Assembly: GCF_000686665.1 (NCBI RefSeq)
Contig: NZ_JMLH01000031.1
Span: 1 to 32,874 of the forward strand
Direction of reading: 5' to 3'
Length of the DNA stretch: 32,874 nucleotides
From: Thomasclavelia saccharogumia DSM 17460
GTDB taxonomy: Bacteria; Bacillota_I; Bacilli_A; Erysipelotrichales; Coprobacillaceae
Shown: positions 20,177 to 31,372 of the stretch, piece by piece
Position numbering within the stretch: the stretch's first letter is position 1
How the letters are laid out: each line of letters begins with the position of its first letter
Program-made: the position numbers and the translations under genes
Notes under the pieces: model-generated
Seen by the model: the letters and a program-made list of their open reading frames with translations, nothing else
Told to the model about the DNA's origin: nothing
Database searches by the model: none

Positions 20177-20991
20177 TATTTAATTTTCATTCTTTCTTTA
20201 TTGGCACAGCTTTCAAGTAAAATCGGTTTCTTTTCATTAGTTGCTATTTCAACCCCTAATTCTTTTACCCAGTCATAACCTTCTTGATCAATTTTTTCCA
20301 CTACTTCTTTTCCACCACTTAAAATAATTTTTCCATCGACTAATACATGAACATGACTTGGTGGTACCAATTCAAACAAACGTTCATAATGGGAAACCAT
20401 CACACAACCAAAATCATCTGATTTCATTTCATTGATTGCATTAGCAACAATTTTTAAAGCATCTACATCTAAACCAGAATCAATTTCATCTAATAAAGCA
20501 AACTTAGGCTGTAACAATTTCATTTGTAAAATTTCATTACGTTTCTTTTCACCACCTGAAAAACCTTCATTTAAATAACGATGAGCCAAATTTTCATCCA
20601 TATTCAAATCAGCGATGTTTTTTTCTAATATTCGTACAAATTTAAATAATGATATTGGTTTTTCTTGATGAGCATTTACCGCTGCTCTTAAAAAATCTGA
20701 AGTCGTAACGCCAGGAATTTCTTGAGGATACTGCATTCCTAAAAATATCCCTGCCTTGCTTCTTTCATCAACGCTCATTTTTAAAACGTCACGATCATCT
20801 AAATAAATACTTCCCTTTGTAACTACATATTTAGGATGTCCCATGATAACTGATAATAATGTTGATTTACCATTACCATTAGGACCCATAAGGGCATGAA
20901 TCTCACCAGTATTTATTGTTAAATCAATCCCTTTTAGAATCTCTTTTTCACCAATACCCACATGTAAATCTTCTATTTTTAAAGTTGACAT
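20176..20991 (-). CDS. sufC: Fe-S assembly ATPase SufC
   Basis: ABC-type ATPase that drives the SufBCD complex. 271 residues: Walker A GPNGNGKST (36-44), Q-loop MQYPQEIPGV (86-95), signature FSGGEKKRNEI (144-154) and Walker B FALLDEIDSGLD (164-175), with DEIDSGLD being the SufC-specific form. A C-terminal tail of about 20 residues goes slightly beyond the usual end. First gene of the operon; AAAGGGG lies about 6 nt before ATG. Its stop overlaps the sufD start (TAATG). Confidence 0.96.
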   Translation of the reverse strand: MSTLKIEDLHVGIGEKEILKGIDLTINTGEIHALMGPNGNGKSTLLSVIMGHPKYVVTKGSIYLDDRDVLKMSVDERSKAGIFLGMQYPQEIPGVTTSDFLRAAVNAHQEKPISLFKFVRILEKNIADLNMDENLAHRYLNEGFSGGEKKRNEILQMKLLQPKFALLDEIDSGLDVDALKIVANAINEMKSDDFGCVMVSHYERLFELVPPSHVHVLVDGKIILSGGKEVVEKIDQEGYDWVKELGVEIATNEKKPILLESCANKERMKIK

Positions 20992-23312: not shown

Positions 23313-24308
23313 ATGAAATTAGGAAAATATGCTGCTGCTTTAGTAGTAACTAGTTTCTTATTAACTGGATGCGGTAATTCCAAAACAGTTAAAGAGGATG
23401 GGAAATATGTAGTTGCCTCTTTAAGCAAAGGTAAAAAAGATAAAAATATCTTTGCTGATGATATCTTTGAGGATATCACTAATACAACTAGTGGTAAAAG
23501 TGCTTTTTTTGAAGCTGTTTTACAACAATTGATGGATGACAAATTCCCTATTGATGATGACATGGAAACAGATGCTAAAAGAACAGTAGACCAAATTCAA
23601 GCATATTATGAAAATCAATATGGGGATAATGCTGAAGAACAATTGAATACTGTTTTATCTTCTAGTGGTTATGCATCATTAGATGCTTATCGTGAGGCAA
23701 TGGTTAAAGCTTATCAAAAATCTAACTTTTTACTAGATTATGTAGAAAATAATTTTGATGAAGTTTTTGATGACTACTACACACAATCAAGTCCTCGTGA
23801 AGCAAGCATTATCAAAGTTGCTATGACTGATGTAGATAATCCAACTGAAGCTGAAAGCACAAAATTAAACGAAGTAGCTGCTTTGCTTTCTTCAAGCAAG
23901 TCATTTGGTGATATTGCAAAAGATTATTCTGATGACACTACTACTAATATGAATAAAGGTGGTTTAGGTGTTGTTGATACAACTAGCAGTATTAGCAGTA
24001 CTTATGGCAGTGATGTAGAAACTAAAATTTTAGCACTAAATGAAGGAGAAATAAGCGAGGCCATTAAAGGTAGTGATGGTTATTATTTTGTAACTGTAAC
24101 TAACACAGATAAAGATACAATCAAAAAATCACTTAAAAAGGATCTTTCAATAGATAGTCCTTTGATTTCTTATGATTTGTATCTACCATATATTGCATAT
24201 CAATCATATGATGTAAAATATAGCGATGACGATGTTGAAAAACTTGTAAACAGTATTATTGAAGATGCGTTAAAAGAACGTGAAACTAGTAGAGGAGGAA
24301 CTGAGTAA
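23313..24308 (+). CDS. PrsA-like foldase lipoprotein (peptidyl-prolyl isomerase)
   Basis: A 331-residue extracellular lipoprotein with lipobox LLTGC (Cys20). The mature part resembles PrsA/SurA chaperones: a helical N-terminal domain (about 50-155, E-rich with QLMDDKF and YYENQYGD), then a parvulin-type domain (about 160-262) with ASIIKVAM, SFGDIAKDYSDD.....GGLGVVD and GSDGYYFVTV, then a C-terminal helical tail. It would help secreted proteins fold at the outer face of the membrane. Several parvulin catalytic positions appear altered, so isomerase activity is uncertain. Its stop shares a base with the next gene (TAATG). Confidence 0.87.
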   Translation: MKLGKYAAALVVTSFLLTGCGNSKTVKEDGKYVVASLSKGKKDKNIFADDIFEDITNTTSGKSAFFEAVLQQLMDDKFPIDDDMETDAKRTVDQIQAYYENQYGDNAEEQLNTVLSSSGYASLDAYREAMVKAYQKSNFLLDYVENNFDEVFDDYYTQSSPREASIIKVAMTDVDNPTEAESTKLNEVAALLSSSKSFGDIAKDYSDDTTTNMNKGGLGVVDTTSSISSTYGSDVETKILALNEGEISEAIKGSDGYYFVTVTNTDKDTIKKSLKKDLSIDSPLISYDLYLPYIAYQSYDVKYSDDDVEKLVNSIIEDALKERETSRGGTE

Positions 24309-25168
24309 TGAAGAAAAAAATATTTCCATTAATGGTTGCTGGAACTTTATTAGTAGGATGCGGTTCTTCTAGTGCTGTAAATTATTCAAGTGAAGTAAGC
24401 GATGGCGATAAAACTGTAATTACTGTTGGTGATACTGAAATTAATAAAAATGAAATATATCACTATTTATTAGAACAATATGGAAGTTCTGAAGTTTTAT
24501 CTTTAGCTCTTACTTATATTGCAGATCAAGAAATCACTGATGAAGATGCTATTAAAACTAAAGTCGATGAAAGGGTTGCTAGTACAAAAGAGAATATATC
24601 TACTTCTTTAGATGAATATGCAAAACAACTAGGTTATGAAGATGAACAAGCTTATATTGATGATATTGTAACTGCTGGTGTTAAACAAGAAATGCTCAAA
24701 GAAAAATATATTGATGAAAAATATGATGATTTAGTCAAAGAATATAAACCTAAGTATTTAAAAATCATTACAGTAGATACAGAATCAGGAGCTTTAAGTC
24801 TAATTGATCAAATTAATGAAGGTGCTGATTTTGATACGGTTATGAATGAAAACAGTGGTAGTGATGCTGGAATGGTAACTACTGAATCTACTAGTGTTGA
24901 TTCTAAAATTATTGACAAGTTAGATAAATTTACTAAAGATGGTTTATACAGCAAAACAATTAAAACATCTGAATCTAAATATGCAGTTATTTACGTATAT
25001 AATAGTGATCAAAGCGCGATTAAAGATGAAATTAAGAGTAATTTAGCTTCTATTAGTGAAATGTCAACTAAAATGGAAAGTTATTATTTAAAACAATATA
25101 ATTTTGATATTTATGAAGAAGCAATTAAAGATGAAATTGAAGAATCTAATGCCGATTATCTAGGATAA
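24308..25168 (+). CDS. Second PrsA-like foldase lipoprotein
   Basis: A 286-residue lipoprotein with lipobox LLVGC (Cys18). It has the PrsA pattern: TVITVGDTEINKNEIYHYLLEQYG (about 36-59), typical of the chaperone N-terminal domain, a long acidic helical region, and a degenerate parvulin-like segment about 150-232 (YLKIITVD, GADFDTVMNENSGSDAG, YAVIYVYN). The usual GG-x-LG part is reduced to DAGMV, so it is probably a chaperone without isomerase activity. Translationally coupled to the preceding gene by TAATG and ended by a strong terminator; the two proteins may work as a pair. Confidence 0.85.
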   Translation: MKKKIFPLMVAGTLLVGCGSSSAVNYSSEVSDGDKTVITVGDTEINKNEIYHYLLEQYGSSEVLSLALTYIADQEITDEDAIKTKVDERVASTKENISTSLDEYAKQLGYEDEQAYIDDIVTAGVKQEMLKEKYIDEKYDDLVKEYKPKYLKIITVDTESGALSLIDQINEGADFDTVMNENSGSDAGMVTTESTSVDSKIIDKLDKFTKDGLYSKTIKTSESKYAVIYVYNSDQSAIKDEIKSNLASISEMSTKMESYYLKQYNFDIYEEAIKDEIEESNADYLG

Positions 25169-26394: not shown

Positions 26395-27342
26395 TTAATT
26401 TATTTTTGGTTTATAAAAAGCTCTATTTTCCAATGCAAAAACTCTTTTTGAAAAACTTCCAGGTTCTACTGTTTCTAATGCCTTTTCCAACATGTTGATT
26501 CTTGCATCCATATTATCAATCAAATAAACAATTTCTGCTTCTTTTATCTGTGGCAATACTGGTGACCCGAATTCATTTTTACCGTGGTGTGATAAAATCA
26601 TATGCTGAAGTAATGTTACTTCTTCCCCTTCAATATGCATCTTATCTGCCGTTTCCTTGATCATGGCCTGCGAAATTGAAATATGTCCTAGCAATTTACC
26701 CTCAATTGTATACTCAGGAACAACAGGTCCACTTAACTCGACTATTTTTCCTAAATCATGTAAAGTGATCCCAGCAAATAATAAGTCCTTATTTAATGTA
26801 GGATACAAAGTATATAAAGCATCGGCAATTTTCAACATACTATAAGTATGATGAGCTAACCCTGATACATATTCATGATGATTTTTACTTGCAGCCGGAT
26901 AAATAGTTAATTTATCAAGATGTTCTTCAAAAATAGCTTTAACCAATTGATTTAATTTTAAATTATCAATACGATCAATATACTTTTTTATTTCTTTAAT
27001 TAGTTCTTCACCAGTTTTTGGAGCACTTTTTAAATATTTCACTTGTTCTTGAGGATCATTAGAAGCAACATGAATCTTAATGATCTTCATTTGACGATCT
27101 TCATTGTACTTAATGATATCGCCTTTAACCTGAACAACAGTACCCATTATAAGTTTTTCTACTTGTTCATTAGTAGCATTCCAAAGCTTTGCATCAATTG
27201 ATCCACTTGTATCTTGTAATGTGATACTTAAATAAGTTGAACGATTAGCACCATTTGTTTTTCCGGTTACAACACGGTTTATCAAGGCTTCAACAACAAC
27301 CCCTTCATCTCCCGGTTTTAAATCCTTTATTTTATTCATCAT
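26395..27342 (-). CDS. yhaM: 3'-5' exoribonuclease YhaM
   Basis: A 315-residue YhaM/CbfI-type RNase. The N-terminal OB-fold (about 5-100) has TYLSITLQDTSGSIDAKLWNAT, a nucleic-acid-binding pattern. The HD domain holds HHEYVSGLAHHTYSML, then LHDLGKI (HD metal pair) and HMILSHHG, the YhaM signature. It trims RNA and single-stranded DNA 3' ends and is found only in Firmicutes. The ATG is preceded by GAAGGAG and overlaps the end of the glycosyltransferase-RecX gene by 11 nt, so it is coupled to it; a second ATG directly follows. Last gene of the operon; I see no convincing terminator after it. Confidence 0.94.
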   Translation of the reverse strand: MMNKIKDLKPGDEGVVVEALINRVVTGKTNGANRSTYLSITLQDTSGSIDAKLWNATNEQVEKLIMGTVVQVKGDIIKYNEDRQMKIIKIHVASNDPQEQVKYLKSAPKTGEELIKEIKKYIDRIDNLKLNQLVKAIFEEHLDKLTIYPAASKNHHEYVSGLAHHTYSMLKIADALYTLYPTLNKDLLFAGITLHDLGKIVELSGPVVPEYTIEGKLLGHISISQAMIKETADKMHIEGEEVTLLQHMILSHHGKNEFGSPVLPQIKEAEIVYLIDNMDARINMLEKALETVEPGSFSKRVFALENRAFYKPKIN

Positions 27343-29320
27343 TTAAAGCTCCTTCTTCATTTAATAATTCTTTAATATGCTCATAATTGTAACCTTTTCT
27401 TAATAAAGTATCAATTATTTTTTCTTTTAATTGATTTCCGTGATATTTTTTTATATATTTCTTTTTTTGTTTTATAAATTCTTTTTCTAAAGTTTTTCGC
27501 TCTTTTTGATCATCAAAATCAAAATCATAATCAGCTAAAGCTCTTTCAATAGTTTCTGTCGTAAAACCTTTGATATAAAGTTTATCTCGAATCTTTTTCA
27601 ATGTTGCTTTATAAGAAAAATTGTTATTACGATTATAATATGCATCAATAATATTGGTTGCAGCATTATACTCATCATCATGATCATTTTCTTCAAGACA
27701 ACGATCAATAATTTCACTACTAATACCATAATTACGTAAATTATAAATTGCCTTATTTAAGCCAATACCTAAGCGTGTGCAGCGTTTTAAATAATTTAGG
27801 GTATAAGCCTCATCATTAATTAAATTCTTTTCCTGCAGCAATTCTAACGTTGCATCAAGCTGAGTATCATCATAATCACCACTATCCATTAACTTTTTCT
27901 TCATTTGATTATAGGTATAATCTTTTACTGTTAACAGTTTTAATGCCTTATTATACGCTCTTGAAACTTGTTCATGATCTTTTATAATATCAAAAATTTC
28001 CTTACTGATTTCTTTACCCGATTCTAATTTATACGCTCTAATAACTTTATCACTAACTTCAACAATTATCTCACTTTCATCAAATAAAAAAACAACCTCA
28101 TTAATACCTTTTTTTATTGGATAAATTGATTTAACAGTATAGGTATAATGTTTTAGATTAATTGCCCTTCGATATACGTCTAATACTTTTTCATAAAATA
28201 CTTCACTGCTAAATTTCATTGCCCTCATATAAGCTTCTTTTGCCATCTTAGAATTATCACTACTCATCATCTTTAACAAAATAGCAGCTAATTCATTCGT
28301 TTCTTTAAAGAAATAACCATTTACACCATCAATAATGACATTTTCTAAATTTTGATCATACCGAGCAATTACCGGTATTCCACTTGCCATTGCTTCTATA
28401 TATGTCAATCCTTGAGTTTCTGTAATTGAAGCAGAAACAAAAACATTTGAAAGATGATAGTAACTTGGAACTTCATCACTTGGTTTTGGACCTGTAAAAA
28501 CTACATATTTACTTATATGATCATCTTTAACTAATTCTTTTAATTCATCAAGCTGTGGGCCTCCACCTACGATCAAGCACAACACATTATCATTTTCTTT
28601 AACAACTTCTTTCATTGCATCTATTAATACATCAATACTTTTTTCTTTTGCAATTCGACCTAAAAATGTAATGATAAATTGATTATTGATTCCATACTGT
28701 TGTTTAATTTGATTGATCAATGTTTCATTTTTATTTTTAGGATCAAATTTATCTAATTCCAATCCCGTTGGAATAACATGCATCTCCTTATTAAGACCAT
28801 ATTTTCTTAATGCATCCTCGGTTTTTGTAGATGGAACAATCAACTCTGTGCTCTTATCACCATAAAATTTACTTATTCGAGTAATTGCTTTTTTTATTAA
28901 TCCATCAATTGCTGCTGAATTAACAGGATTTACGTAATGAGAGTAGTCTTCCCACATAGTATGATAAGTATACACAACAGGAATATTTAATGATTCACCA
29001 ACTATTCTACCAAATATTCCTATTCCAAATTCCGTTTGAACATGAATTACTTCGATATTCATCCCCTTTATCTCGCGCATTCCTTTAAATGAATAAATAT
29101 TACAAGCTCGATATCCATATAATGCCTGAATTTCTAAACCTGGAACCCTTAAAATATTATCGTCAGGGTCATCCAAATAATCGCTTTCACTTGGTAATTC
29201 ACTTGTAACTACAACAACTTCATGACCGTGTTTAATTAACTCATCACGCAAGATTTTAGTTGAAGTAGCAACTCCATTTATATCTGGTATATATGTATCT
29301 GAAAAAATAGCAATTTTCAT
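27332..29320 (-). CDS. Diacylglycerol glucosyltransferase fused to RecX
   Basis: One uninterrupted 662-residue frame with two unrelated parts. Residues about 1-385: GT4 glycosyltransferase of the 1,2-diacylglycerol 3-glucosyltransferase type (LafA/alMGS-like). It begins MKIAIFSDTYIPDINGVATST, then HTMWEDYSHYV, FLGRIAKEKSIDVLI and the E-x7-E motif ETQGLTYIE (E301, E309). Residues about 392-662: a complete RecX-like protein, aligning from its N-terminal beta segment (INEVVFLFDESEIIVEVS) through YNKALKLLTVKDYTYNQMKKKL and three helical repeats, ending LLRKGYNYEHIKELLNEE. RecX normally is a separate inhibitor of RecA filaments. ATG at 29320 has GGAG 7 nt upstream, in the stop region of the preceding gene. 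It is followed, overlapping, by yhaM. Confidence 0.9.
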   Translation of the reverse strand: MKIAIFSDTYIPDINGVATSTKILRDELIKHGHEVVVVTSELPSESDYLDDPDDNILRVPGLEIQALYGYRACNIYSFKGMREIKGMNIEVIHVQTEFGIGIFGRIVGESLNIPVVYTYHTMWEDYSHYVNPVNSAAIDGLIKKAITRISKFYGDKSTELIVPSTKTEDALRKYGLNKEMHVIPTGLELDKFDPKNKNETLINQIKQQYGINNQFIITFLGRIAKEKSIDVLIDAMKEVVKENDNVLCLIVGGGPQLDELKELVKDDHISKYVVFTGPKPSDEVPSYYHLSNVFVSASITETQGLTYIEAMASGIPVIARYDQNLENVIIDGVNGYFFKETNELAAILLKMMSSDNSKMAKEAYMRAMKFSSEVFYEKVLDVYRRAINLKHYTYTVKSIYPIKKGINEVVFLFDESEIIVEVSDKVIRAYKLESGKEISKEIFDIIKDHEQVSRAYNKALKLLTVKDYTYNQMKKKLMDSGDYDDTQLDATLELLQEKNLINDEAYTLNYLKRCTRLGIGLNKAIYNLRNYGISSEIIDRCLEENDHDDEYNAATNIIDAYYNRNNNFSYKATLKKIRDKLYIKGFTTETIERALADYDFDFDDQKERKTLEKEFIKQKKKYIKKYHGNQLKEKIIDTLLRKGYNYEHIKELLNEEGALNDE

Positions 29321-29324
29321 AATT

Positions 29325-30353
29325 TTACTCCGTTCCATTTATCTCTTTATTAACTGCAAAAATTAAACCACCAATAATTAATCCTAAATAATATGTAATA
29401 AAACGCCAAATCAGCATTGTCGTAGGAGTGCCAACTGCCCCGAGTAATGGCGAAAATAACATAAAATAAACTCCTTCACTACCTCCACTAGCACCTGGAA
29501 TAGGCACAAAAGCTGTAATCATATATACAAATGAACAAATACCTATAAAATCAGGTAATTGTTTTATTGATACCCCTATATGAAGTGCTTTGGCAGCAAA
29601 AAAAGGAATACTATAGATGATTATTAGTTTAAAAAGATTTACTATTGATGATTTTATTAGAATGTTTTTATTGTGCTGCAAAATATTCAATTCTTCTCTA
29701 AAATTTTCTAATGATCTTGATACTTTAAATGAAGTATCCGTATAATTCTTTACAATATGAATTTTACTTAAAAATTTAATAATATTATTACAAATAAAAT
29801 TTTGAAGCTTTTTAGATTTAGCTCCTAAAAATAATCCTGCAATAACAAAAAAATTAATTAAAAAACCAATAATAGCTAATGAAAAAAATTCACTGTAAAT
29901 AGAACTATAAATTCTATATTTAAAAATCATTATTATAGCGGTAAATAAAACAAGAACACTTTGATATACAATAAAAGCCATTAACAAAATACTTGCCGAA
30001 TTAGTCGGCTGGATTCCCTGCCGGTTAAAAATATATACTTGTGCAAACTGTCCACCACTAGAAAAAGGTGTAATTCCGTTAAAAAAAGTACCCGAAATAG
30101 CATTTACAAATCCCTGTTTATAACGATAATCTTTTTTATATAAACGGCCAAATGTATATAAATTTAAGCCATCAAGGATATAATATATTCCCATCAAGAT
30201 AAAGGAAAATAAAATCCACATTGGTGAAGCCGACATCAGCGTCTTCAATGAAGCCTGTAGATCATCCTTCATTGTTAAATAAATAACAGTTGTTCCTAAT
30301 ACTAAAATTAACAAAATATTAAAAATATATTTTTTATTAGACTTTTTATCCAT
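29325..30353 (-). CDS. Flippase-like membrane protein (LPG synthase TM domain, UPF0104)
   Basis: A 342-residue polytopic membrane protein with about eight hydrophobic segments, of the lysylphosphatidylglycerol-synthase transmembrane family (PF03706), without the catalytic C-terminal domain of MprF. The two hallmark motifs are present: GITPFSSGGQ (around 94-103) and FVPIPGASGGSEG in the last third. In MprF this portion flips aminoacylated lipid. Here it sits between the two glycolipid glycosyltransferases, which suggests that it moves a glycolipid or interacts with them (inference). GAGGT lies 6 nt before ATG. It lies 14 nt after the upstream glycosyltransferase gene, and its stop codon overlaps the SD of the next gene. 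Confidence 0.87.
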   Translation of the reverse strand: MDKKSNKKYIFNILLILVLGTTVIYLTMKDDLQASLKTLMSASPMWILFSFILMGIYYILDGLNLYTFGRLYKKDYRYKQGFVNAISGTFFNGITPFSSGGQFAQVYIFNRQGIQPTNSASILLMAFIVYQSVLVLFTAIIMIFKYRIYSSIYSEFFSLAIIGFLINFFVIAGLFLGAKSKKLQNFICNNIIKFLSKIHIVKNYTDTSFKVSRSLENFREELNILQHNKNILIKSSIVNLFKLIIIYSIPFFAAKALHIGVSIKQLPDFIGICSFVYMITAFVPIPGASGGSEGVYFMLFSPLLGAVGTPTTMLIWRFITYYLGLIIGGLIFAVNKEINGTE

Positions 30354-30367
30354 AAAATTACCTCAAA

Positions 30368-31372
30368 TTAGAGTTTAAGTGTTTCTTCATATACCTCTAA
30401 TAATTCTTTCCCAATCTTTGATAATTCTCTTTGTTTAGCTACCTCATAACCTTGATCAACCAATGAAGGATATTCACCTTCAATCATTTTATTGATAATA
30501 TCGACAAAATCATCAGTATCATTACCTTTATAACAATTAACCCCATCTTCAAGCCAATCTGAAAAGACAGGAATGTCACGTAATAAAACATTACATTTGC
30601 ATGCTAAAGCCTCTAATACAACAATTCCTTCTGTTTCTTCTCGTGACGGGAAAAAAAAGATATTACTTCTTCCATATGCACCTTTGATTACATCGCCACT
30701 AACATATCCAGGTAAAATCACATTATCAGGCAAGTTATCTAAAAGATCTTTTATCTTTTTAGTTGGATGAGATAATTTAACATCTCCAAACCACATAAAT
30801 TTATAATTAGGCAATTTCCTAGCTACTTCAATAAAAGTATCAAAACCTTTACGTTCAAATAACCAGCCAACTGAAATAATTATTATATCGTCATCTTCAA
30901 TATCAAACTTATTTTTAAATAAATCTATTTGTTTATCAGTAGGATTAAATTGCGACAAATCAACCCCATTAGATATGGCACTAATCGGCAACGTGATTCC
31001 ATAAGATTCTAATATTCTTTTTGAATATGGTGTAGGTGTAATAATATGATCACCCTTAGTATATAAATTAATCAACCATTTTTTATATACACCTGATACT
31101 GAATTTGAGAACATAAATGAATTTCTAAAGTCTTCTTCTGTACTATGAGCATGATATACTATTTTCTTATTATTTTCACGTGCTTGATTAATCATTTTAA
31201 TACTATCAGGCCAGACAGTATTAATATGTAAAATATCATAATCCAAATCTGCTTTATCAACAGTATACAAAACATCATTTAATTCAAGAGCTTTTTTCTG
31301 ATGAATAAAAGCGCGTCCAATTCCTGATTTTTTTATTGAATCTTCCTGTCCAAAATATAATTTAATTTTCAT
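30368..31372 (-). CDS. Glycosyl-diacylglycerol glycosyltransferase (CpoA/LafB-like, GT4)
   Basis: A 334-residue GT4 enzyme probably adding the second sugar to monoglucosyl-diacylglycerol to give the diglycosyl lipid at the cytoplasmic membrane face. It is very like streptococcal CpoA and enterococcal/lactobacillary BgsA/LafB: KKSGIGRAFIHQKKALE near the start, DYDILHINTVWP, YHAHSTEEDFRNSFMFSN, DHIITPTPYSKRILESYGI, ISNGVDLSQFNP, then the E-x7-E motif ETEGIVVLE. No signal peptide or membrane helix; such enzymes bind the membrane peripherally. First gene of the operon, ahead of the flippase-like protein and the LafA-like fusion. SD GGTGA 4-5 nt upstream. The sugar (glucose or galactose) cannot be read from the sequence. 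Confidence 0.9.
   Translation of the reverse strand: MKIKLYFGQEDSIKKSGIGRAFIHQKKALELNDVLYTVDKADLDYDILHINTVWPDSIKMINQARENNKKIVYHAHSTEEDFRNSFMFSNSVSGVYKKWLINLYTKGDHIITPTPYSKRILESYGITLPISAISNGVDLSQFNPTDKQIDLFKNKFDIEDDDIIIISVGWLFERKGFDTFIEVARKLPNYKFMWFGDVKLSHPTKKIKDLLDNLPDNVILPGYVSGDVIKGAYGRSNIFFFPSREETEGIVVLEALACKCNVLLRDIPVFSDWLEDGVNCYKGNDTDDFVDIINKMIEGEYPSLVDQGYEVAKQRELSKIGKELLEVYEETLKL

Follow-up and report, generated by a model that had tools for sequence, protein, structure and literature searches.

We found that Thomasclavelia saccharogumia DSM 17460 encodes a glycosyltransferase of family GT4 and RecX, the protein that restrains the DNA-recombination machine RecA, as one protein, and that this fusion is both real and old. 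The fused gene lies in a stretch of 32,874 nucleotides (contig NZ_JMLH01000031.1), the whole of which we refer to as the window. Both half-families are known; it is their architecture as one protein that is new. In the literature searched, which lay mostly outside subscription journals, we found no paper describing a GT4-RecX fusion, and the architecture may perhaps be visible already in public domain-architecture databases. No record in the plasmid collection covered 80% of the fused protein.

The fused frame extends on the reverse strand from position 29338 to 27332 with zero internal stops and zero changes of frame, and its stop codon occupies 27334-27332. Of two candidate starts, ATG at 29338 and ATG at 29320, the latter is probably the one in use, giving a protein of 662 amino acids, as it is preceded by GGAG at 29331-29328 and yields the N-terminus MKIAIFSDTY, a canonical GT4 start. 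The full fusion was modelled with AlphaFold2 from the window protein aligned with its loci (pLDDT 85, pTM 0.60). In this model the last glycosyltransferase helix (residues 372-390) passes straight into the RecX beta sheet (393-423), which is followed by twelve helices; the junction has neither a long linker nor a special element. Because pTM is only 0.60, the relative orientation of the two halves is uncertain. A preliminary description of the window had proposed an uninterrupted frame joining a glycosyltransferase (residues 1-385) to a full-length RecX region (392-662), complete with its N-terminal beta segment and helical repeats. Our analysis agrees on each point: the frame is open from 29320 to 27332, both boundaries fit the model, and all parts of the RecX fold are present (Table 1).

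Table 1. Positions in the window of the fused gene, its parts and the adjoining genes
Feature	Residues	Coordinates	Strand	Basis or remark
Fused gene, GT4 glycosyltransferase + RecX, 662 aa		27332..29320	-	One open frame
Glycosyltransferase half, GT-B fold, E301-x7-E309 motif	1-390	28151..29320	-	Pfam, NCBIfam, Foldseek
RecX half	391-662	27335..28150	-	RecX_HTH1, RecX_HTH3, PRK14135, PDB matches
RecX N-terminal beta subdomain	393-423	28052..28144	-	Strands 393-403, 406-413, 416-423 (AlphaFold model)
RecX helical repeats	440-655	27356..28003	-	Twelve helices (AlphaFold model)
yhaM (3'-5' exoribonuclease)		26395..27342	-	NF010007, E 5e-112; start overlaps fusion stop by 11 nt
Flippase-like membrane protein, PF03706 / TIGR00374		29325..30353	-	128.7 bits; TIGR00374 above cut-off
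Second glycolipid glycosyltransferase IagA/BgsA (Dgs-like)		30368..31372	-	NF053513, 485 bits; cut-off of 460 passed

The N-terminal half is a member of GT4: it has the GT-B fold, Glyco_transf_4 and Glycos_transf_1 domains and the E-x7-E motif. Pfam places GT4 domains at residues 20-363 (PF00534, 122 bits; PF13439, 91 bits), and a Foldseek search with the full model matched the GT4 enzymes MshA, BshA, PimA and PimB'. The top NCBIfam model for this half is NF049988, alpha-monoglucosyldiacylglycerol synthase (MGS; E = 8e-80), which aligns over 389 of its 398 positions with a score of 269 bits, below the curated cut-off of 400. The earlier name of diacylglycerol glucosyltransferase thus holds as the best model match and not as an assignment; given this score we describe the half as MGS-like, with sugar and acceptor predicted. 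Like the Acholeplasma-type MGS represented by NF049988, it has the GT4 catalytic motif and adjoins a second-step transferase of the IagA/BgsA type, but only the fusion bears RecX at its C-terminus. In genus g7 (G014, G029, G034 and G037) a second, unfused glycosyltransferase paralogue of about 400 amino acids (40-42% identity) accompanies the fusion.

The C-terminal half has the RecX fold, with tandem three-helix repeats and an N-terminal beta part of the Firmicutes type. Both RecX_HTH1 (45 bits) and RecX_HTH3 (34 bits) exceed the Pfam cut-off of 26, and they are the only RecX models of Pfam that do. PF02631 (RecX_HTH2), the profile by which the preliminary description expected this half to be recognised, scores 18.9-22.2 bits, under the same cut-off; it therefore fails as a lone RecX probe, and a search of the T. 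saccharogumia genome with it returned zero matches, whereas RecX_HTH1 did find the fusion. PRK14135, the NCBIfam model for RecX, aligns over positions 23-264 of 267 (E = 2e-39), nearly its full length, at 136 bits against an equivalog cut-off of 240. As that naming threshold is tuned to close relatives, the shortfall limits the equivalog claim and leaves RecX homology unaffected. Modelled alone (pLDDT 89), the half has the same helix pattern as in the fusion model, and its six best PDB chains by Foldseek are all RecX (3d5l, 3e3v, 3dfg and 3c1d; E = 1e-11 to 5e-5), two of which, 3d5l and 3e3v, were also matched by sequence. In length (about 270 amino acids), N-terminal beta part, helical repeats, conserved residues and fold it resembles Bacillus subtilis RecX/YfhG (264 amino acids; 3d5l, 3e3v); the difference is that RecX of the Firmicutes is a separate protein, whereas here it is the fast-evolving C-terminal half of a glycolipid synthase.

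As the preliminary description had it, both halves keep their motifs. The Glu pair of E-x7-E, together with Arg228 and Lys233 (numbering of the 668-amino-acid form), is invariant in 78 fusions, and the RecX hallmark positions D509, G538, G591 and G649 are kept and agree with those of separate RecX proteins. We also asked whether charge points to a loss of DNA binding and rejected the idea: the RecX half in family f1 is more acidic than RecX of family f8, but the glycosyltransferase half shifts in the same direction, so the change looks proteome-wide.

To establish its distribution, we searched 98 genomes from the window's family and order, of which 96 were readable. Two apparent absences (G062 and G072) were rejected, as recA is missing there too and the genomes are unreadable; recA is present in every one of the 96 readable genomes. 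The preliminary description had proposed looking for the same fusion in related genomes, and a near full-length copy is present in 90 of the 96, spread over two families. Among the six exceptions, one genome is 69% complete and has no full match (G009), and in two others the fusion is cut by contig ends (G021 and G082). In the single-contig genome G039 (L124:3326-5325) the glycosyltransferase half is broken by several changes of frame, which are probably sequencing errors. The last two, G043 and G084, are described below. We retrieved 78 fused genes, each of which translates without a stop; the window fusion shares 90% identity with its counterpart in T. cocleata DSM 1551.

RecX_HTH1 matches above cut-off all lie inside fusion frames or the frame of G084, which lacks the glycosyltransferase, and a query with the C-terminal half gave one RecX-like match per genome. 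Neither search found a second recX in the genomes of the order. The fusion is thus the only RecX found in the cell, which extends to the T. saccharogumia genome and its order the earlier statement that the window holds no separate recX. In a phylum-wide search, uninterrupted RecX frames longer than 600 amino acids occurred, among the matches listed, only in the window's order. Two frames of 877-881 amino acids with RecX (G245 and G120) were examined as other fusions and set aside; RecX there is a separate open reading frame of about 250 amino acids.

The surroundings of the fusion are also conserved. In nearly all loci yhaM lies directly downstream, and the flippase-like gene, which in the window ends 4 nt before the fusion start, lies directly upstream in most; the IagA/BgsA gene is kept in many, though not all. 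We found no LexA box near the operon, the sole match with two mismatches being at 20373, which is fewer than expected by chance. Two further observations concern this region. In the closest relative, VE202-01, the yhaM beside the fusion is split into two frames (L007:560-1508 and L076:1981-2929), which may be either a sequence error or a pseudogene. Downstream of a PrsA-like peptidylprolyl isomerase, the window holds an open reading frame of 286 amino acids (24308-25168) that matches neither Pfam nor NCBIfam, and one of equal size occupies the corresponding position in related loci of Thomasclavelia.

Relatives with unfused genes bear on the origin of the fusion. Families f8, f10 and f19 share with the fusion loci the order flippase-mgs-recX-yhaM and homologous halves, but their mgs and recX are adjacent, separate genes, and yhaM directly follows the separate recX. 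This is the likely precursor arrangement, and it bears out the earlier suggestion of a Rosetta-stone fusion. In f8, recX is read in the +1 frame and overlaps mgs, mostly by 23 nt; in most loci a GTG start lies exactly 22 nt ahead of where the mgs stop codon ends (L176-L181, L183, L185, L186 and L190). This looks like conserved translational coupling, and with such an overlap one small frameshift, such as the loss of a single base, could fuse the two genes. In the f8 genus g97 (L182, L184, L188 and L189) mgs is absent, and flippase-recX-yhaM remains. Trees built from either half recover f1, f2 and f8 as one group apiece, and both RecX proteins that lack the glycosyltransferase fall inside f2. 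Neither tree resolves the fork joining the three groups, and hence the order in which they branched; f8 may or may not be primitively unfused.

Elsewhere recX directly follows and overlaps a gene of the GT28/MGDG_synth type (PF06925) in f9 (seven of the eight loci seen), f13 (five of seven) and f7 (one of one), at loci L056, L057, L058, L066, L069, L191-L194, L196, L197 and L208. The partner is again a lipid glycosyltransferase, but of another family, and the genes are unfused. In f4, f6, f11, f14, f15 and f17 recX follows YitT-like or CtpA-like genes; in f12 its neighbour is a DHH protein, and in f22 the neighbours are mixed. The association of recX with lipid glycosyltransferases is therefore frequent, though not universal, and in part it may reflect an inherited gene order in which the enzyme was replaced. 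The gene context of recX in Firmicutes has been reported as not conserved (PMC3527212), whereas here it is conserved across several families.

Both halves are maintained by strong purifying selection. Across the ten close pairs that yielded finite estimates, the glycosyltransferase half had a dN/dS of 0.05-0.09 and the RecX half one of 0.04-0.18, falling to 0.02 in the helical part. The RecX half nevertheless evolves faster: mean identity to the window protein is 66% for the glycosyltransferase half and 54% for the RecX half in f1, and 43% and 24%, respectively, in f2.

In two lineages the enzyme has been lost and RecX kept. G084 (L065:6261-7418) encodes a protein of 385 amino acids comprising a decayed N-terminal piece of the glycosyltransferase, its catalytic domain gone, and an intact RecX; similarity of the remnant is weak (hmmsearch E = 0.0005 in a two-sequence search). 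In G043, RecX stands alone adjoining yhaM. Both are nested in the fused f2 clade (starred support 97 and 98). No lineage that kept the glycosyltransferase and lost RecX was found among the genomes of the order.

On balance we favour, with reasonable though far from full confidence, the reading that the protein is a bifunctional glycolipid synthase and RecX, by which part of the cell's RecX is held at the membrane. The glycosyltransferase half would be a GT4 enzyme bound peripherally to the membrane, its most likely reaction being the addition of the first glucose to diacylglycerol; the neighbouring gene products, an IagA/BgsA-type second transferase and a flippase-like protein, would then lengthen the glycolipid and carry it outwards. 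Peripheral binding to anionic membrane surfaces is known for the glycolipid synthases of mycoplasmas and Acholeplasma (PMC6506492), although MG517 belongs to a different glycosyltransferase family. The C-terminal half would act as the cell's only RecX and would still modulate RecA filaments, as RecX of B. subtilis (264 amino acids) modulates RecA threads and the SOS response (PMC3527212). On this reading the fusion would date from the base of the order or earlier, a small frameshift having joined overlapping, translationally coupled mgs and recX. With the enzyme half active at the membrane, some or all of the RecX would be expected at that site. In E. coli, RecA is associated, as storage structures and bundles, with the inner membrane and with anionic phospholipids (PMC6363387). 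Placement of RecX at the membrane, as the preliminary description suggested, is plausible, whereas the control link that it drew between glycolipid synthesis and recombination is a hypothesis; we infer the catalytic specificity, RecA binding, membrane tether and any cross-regulation. Against the bifunctional reading stand the sub-threshold RecX_HTH2, the faster evolution of the RecX half, the two missed NCBIfam equivalog cut-offs and the uncertain relative orientation of the halves. Nor is the physical join indispensable, as other lineages use separate genes and two have dropped the enzyme.

The main rival, which we regard as possible but rather less than even in probability, is that chance joined two co-transcribed, coupled genes, the halves working independently and the joined state having no function; such a fusion would persist since splitting it again needs a new start and a ribosome site. 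The unfused neighbours in f8, f10 and f19 do the same jobs, the f8 overlap is so close that one small frameshift is enough, RecX can survive loss of the enzyme, and the plain junction fits as well. However, a neutral join ought now and then to tolerate nonsense or frameshift changes where the halves meet, and division into two working genes was seen in none of about 94 genomes spanning roughly 30-97% identity; the overlap of recX in f7, f9 and f13 with a different diacylglycerol glycosyltransferase type, GT28, also points to a favoured pairing. That no fusion in these genomes was seen split again weakens this explanation.

It is improbable that the gene yields two products, free RecX coming from proteolysis or from translation at an internal start. 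In favour of this, the halves have distinct folds and meet at a single point, but a start codon with a Shine-Dalgarno sequence occurs at the junction in 16 of 78 genomes against 10-24 in windows of equal size elsewhere. An internal start for a separate RecX is thus not enriched there, and the window gene is not among the 16.

A slightly poorer case can be made for a RecX half that has given up its role on RecA and now serves the glycosyltransferase as scaffold or regulatory domain, a version of which, recruitment as a helical scaffold, appeared in the preliminary description. In the fusion RecX_HTH2 is degenerate, scoring 18.9 bits where the cut-off is 26, and the half evolves faster; yet weak HTH2 scores occur also in the enzyme-free G084, the LxxD and G hallmark positions are those of separate RecX proteins, and recA is universal where no other RecX was found. 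As two nested lineages have kept RecX after losing the enzyme and the reverse was not seen, the scaffold reading is disfavoured, and the RecX half is probably a working one. Finally, an assembly artefact or frameshift read-through confined to this genome is excluded: nothing in the window favours it, G039 with its several frame breaks showing how error-prone sequence looks, and the same fusion is uninterrupted in the 78 retrieved genes and in about 90 independently assembled genomes.

A bolder form of the bifunctional reading, which we hold to be speculative and on present evidence unlikely, is that the fusion is a working coupling device, in which the synthase anchors RecX at the anionic inner leaflet so that the disassembly of RecA filaments is either confined to the membrane or tuned by the state of lipid synthesis. 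If this were true, the order would have membrane-localised control of recombination and the SOS response, and the repeated pairing of recX with GT4 and GT28 lipid glycosyltransferases would be its evolutionary trace. RecX is usually viewed as a small, soluble, nucleoid-associated protein; here a whole order relies on a RecX within a membrane-lipid enzyme, and related families pair RecX in an operon with a lipid glycosyltransferase of either of two types. For annotation, the case is a warning that searches with PF02631 alone can miss the sole RecX of these bacteria. For the biology of the order, a link between the membrane and DNA repair becomes testable in a natural system, and with it the old question of what places RecA storage bodies and bundles at the membrane.
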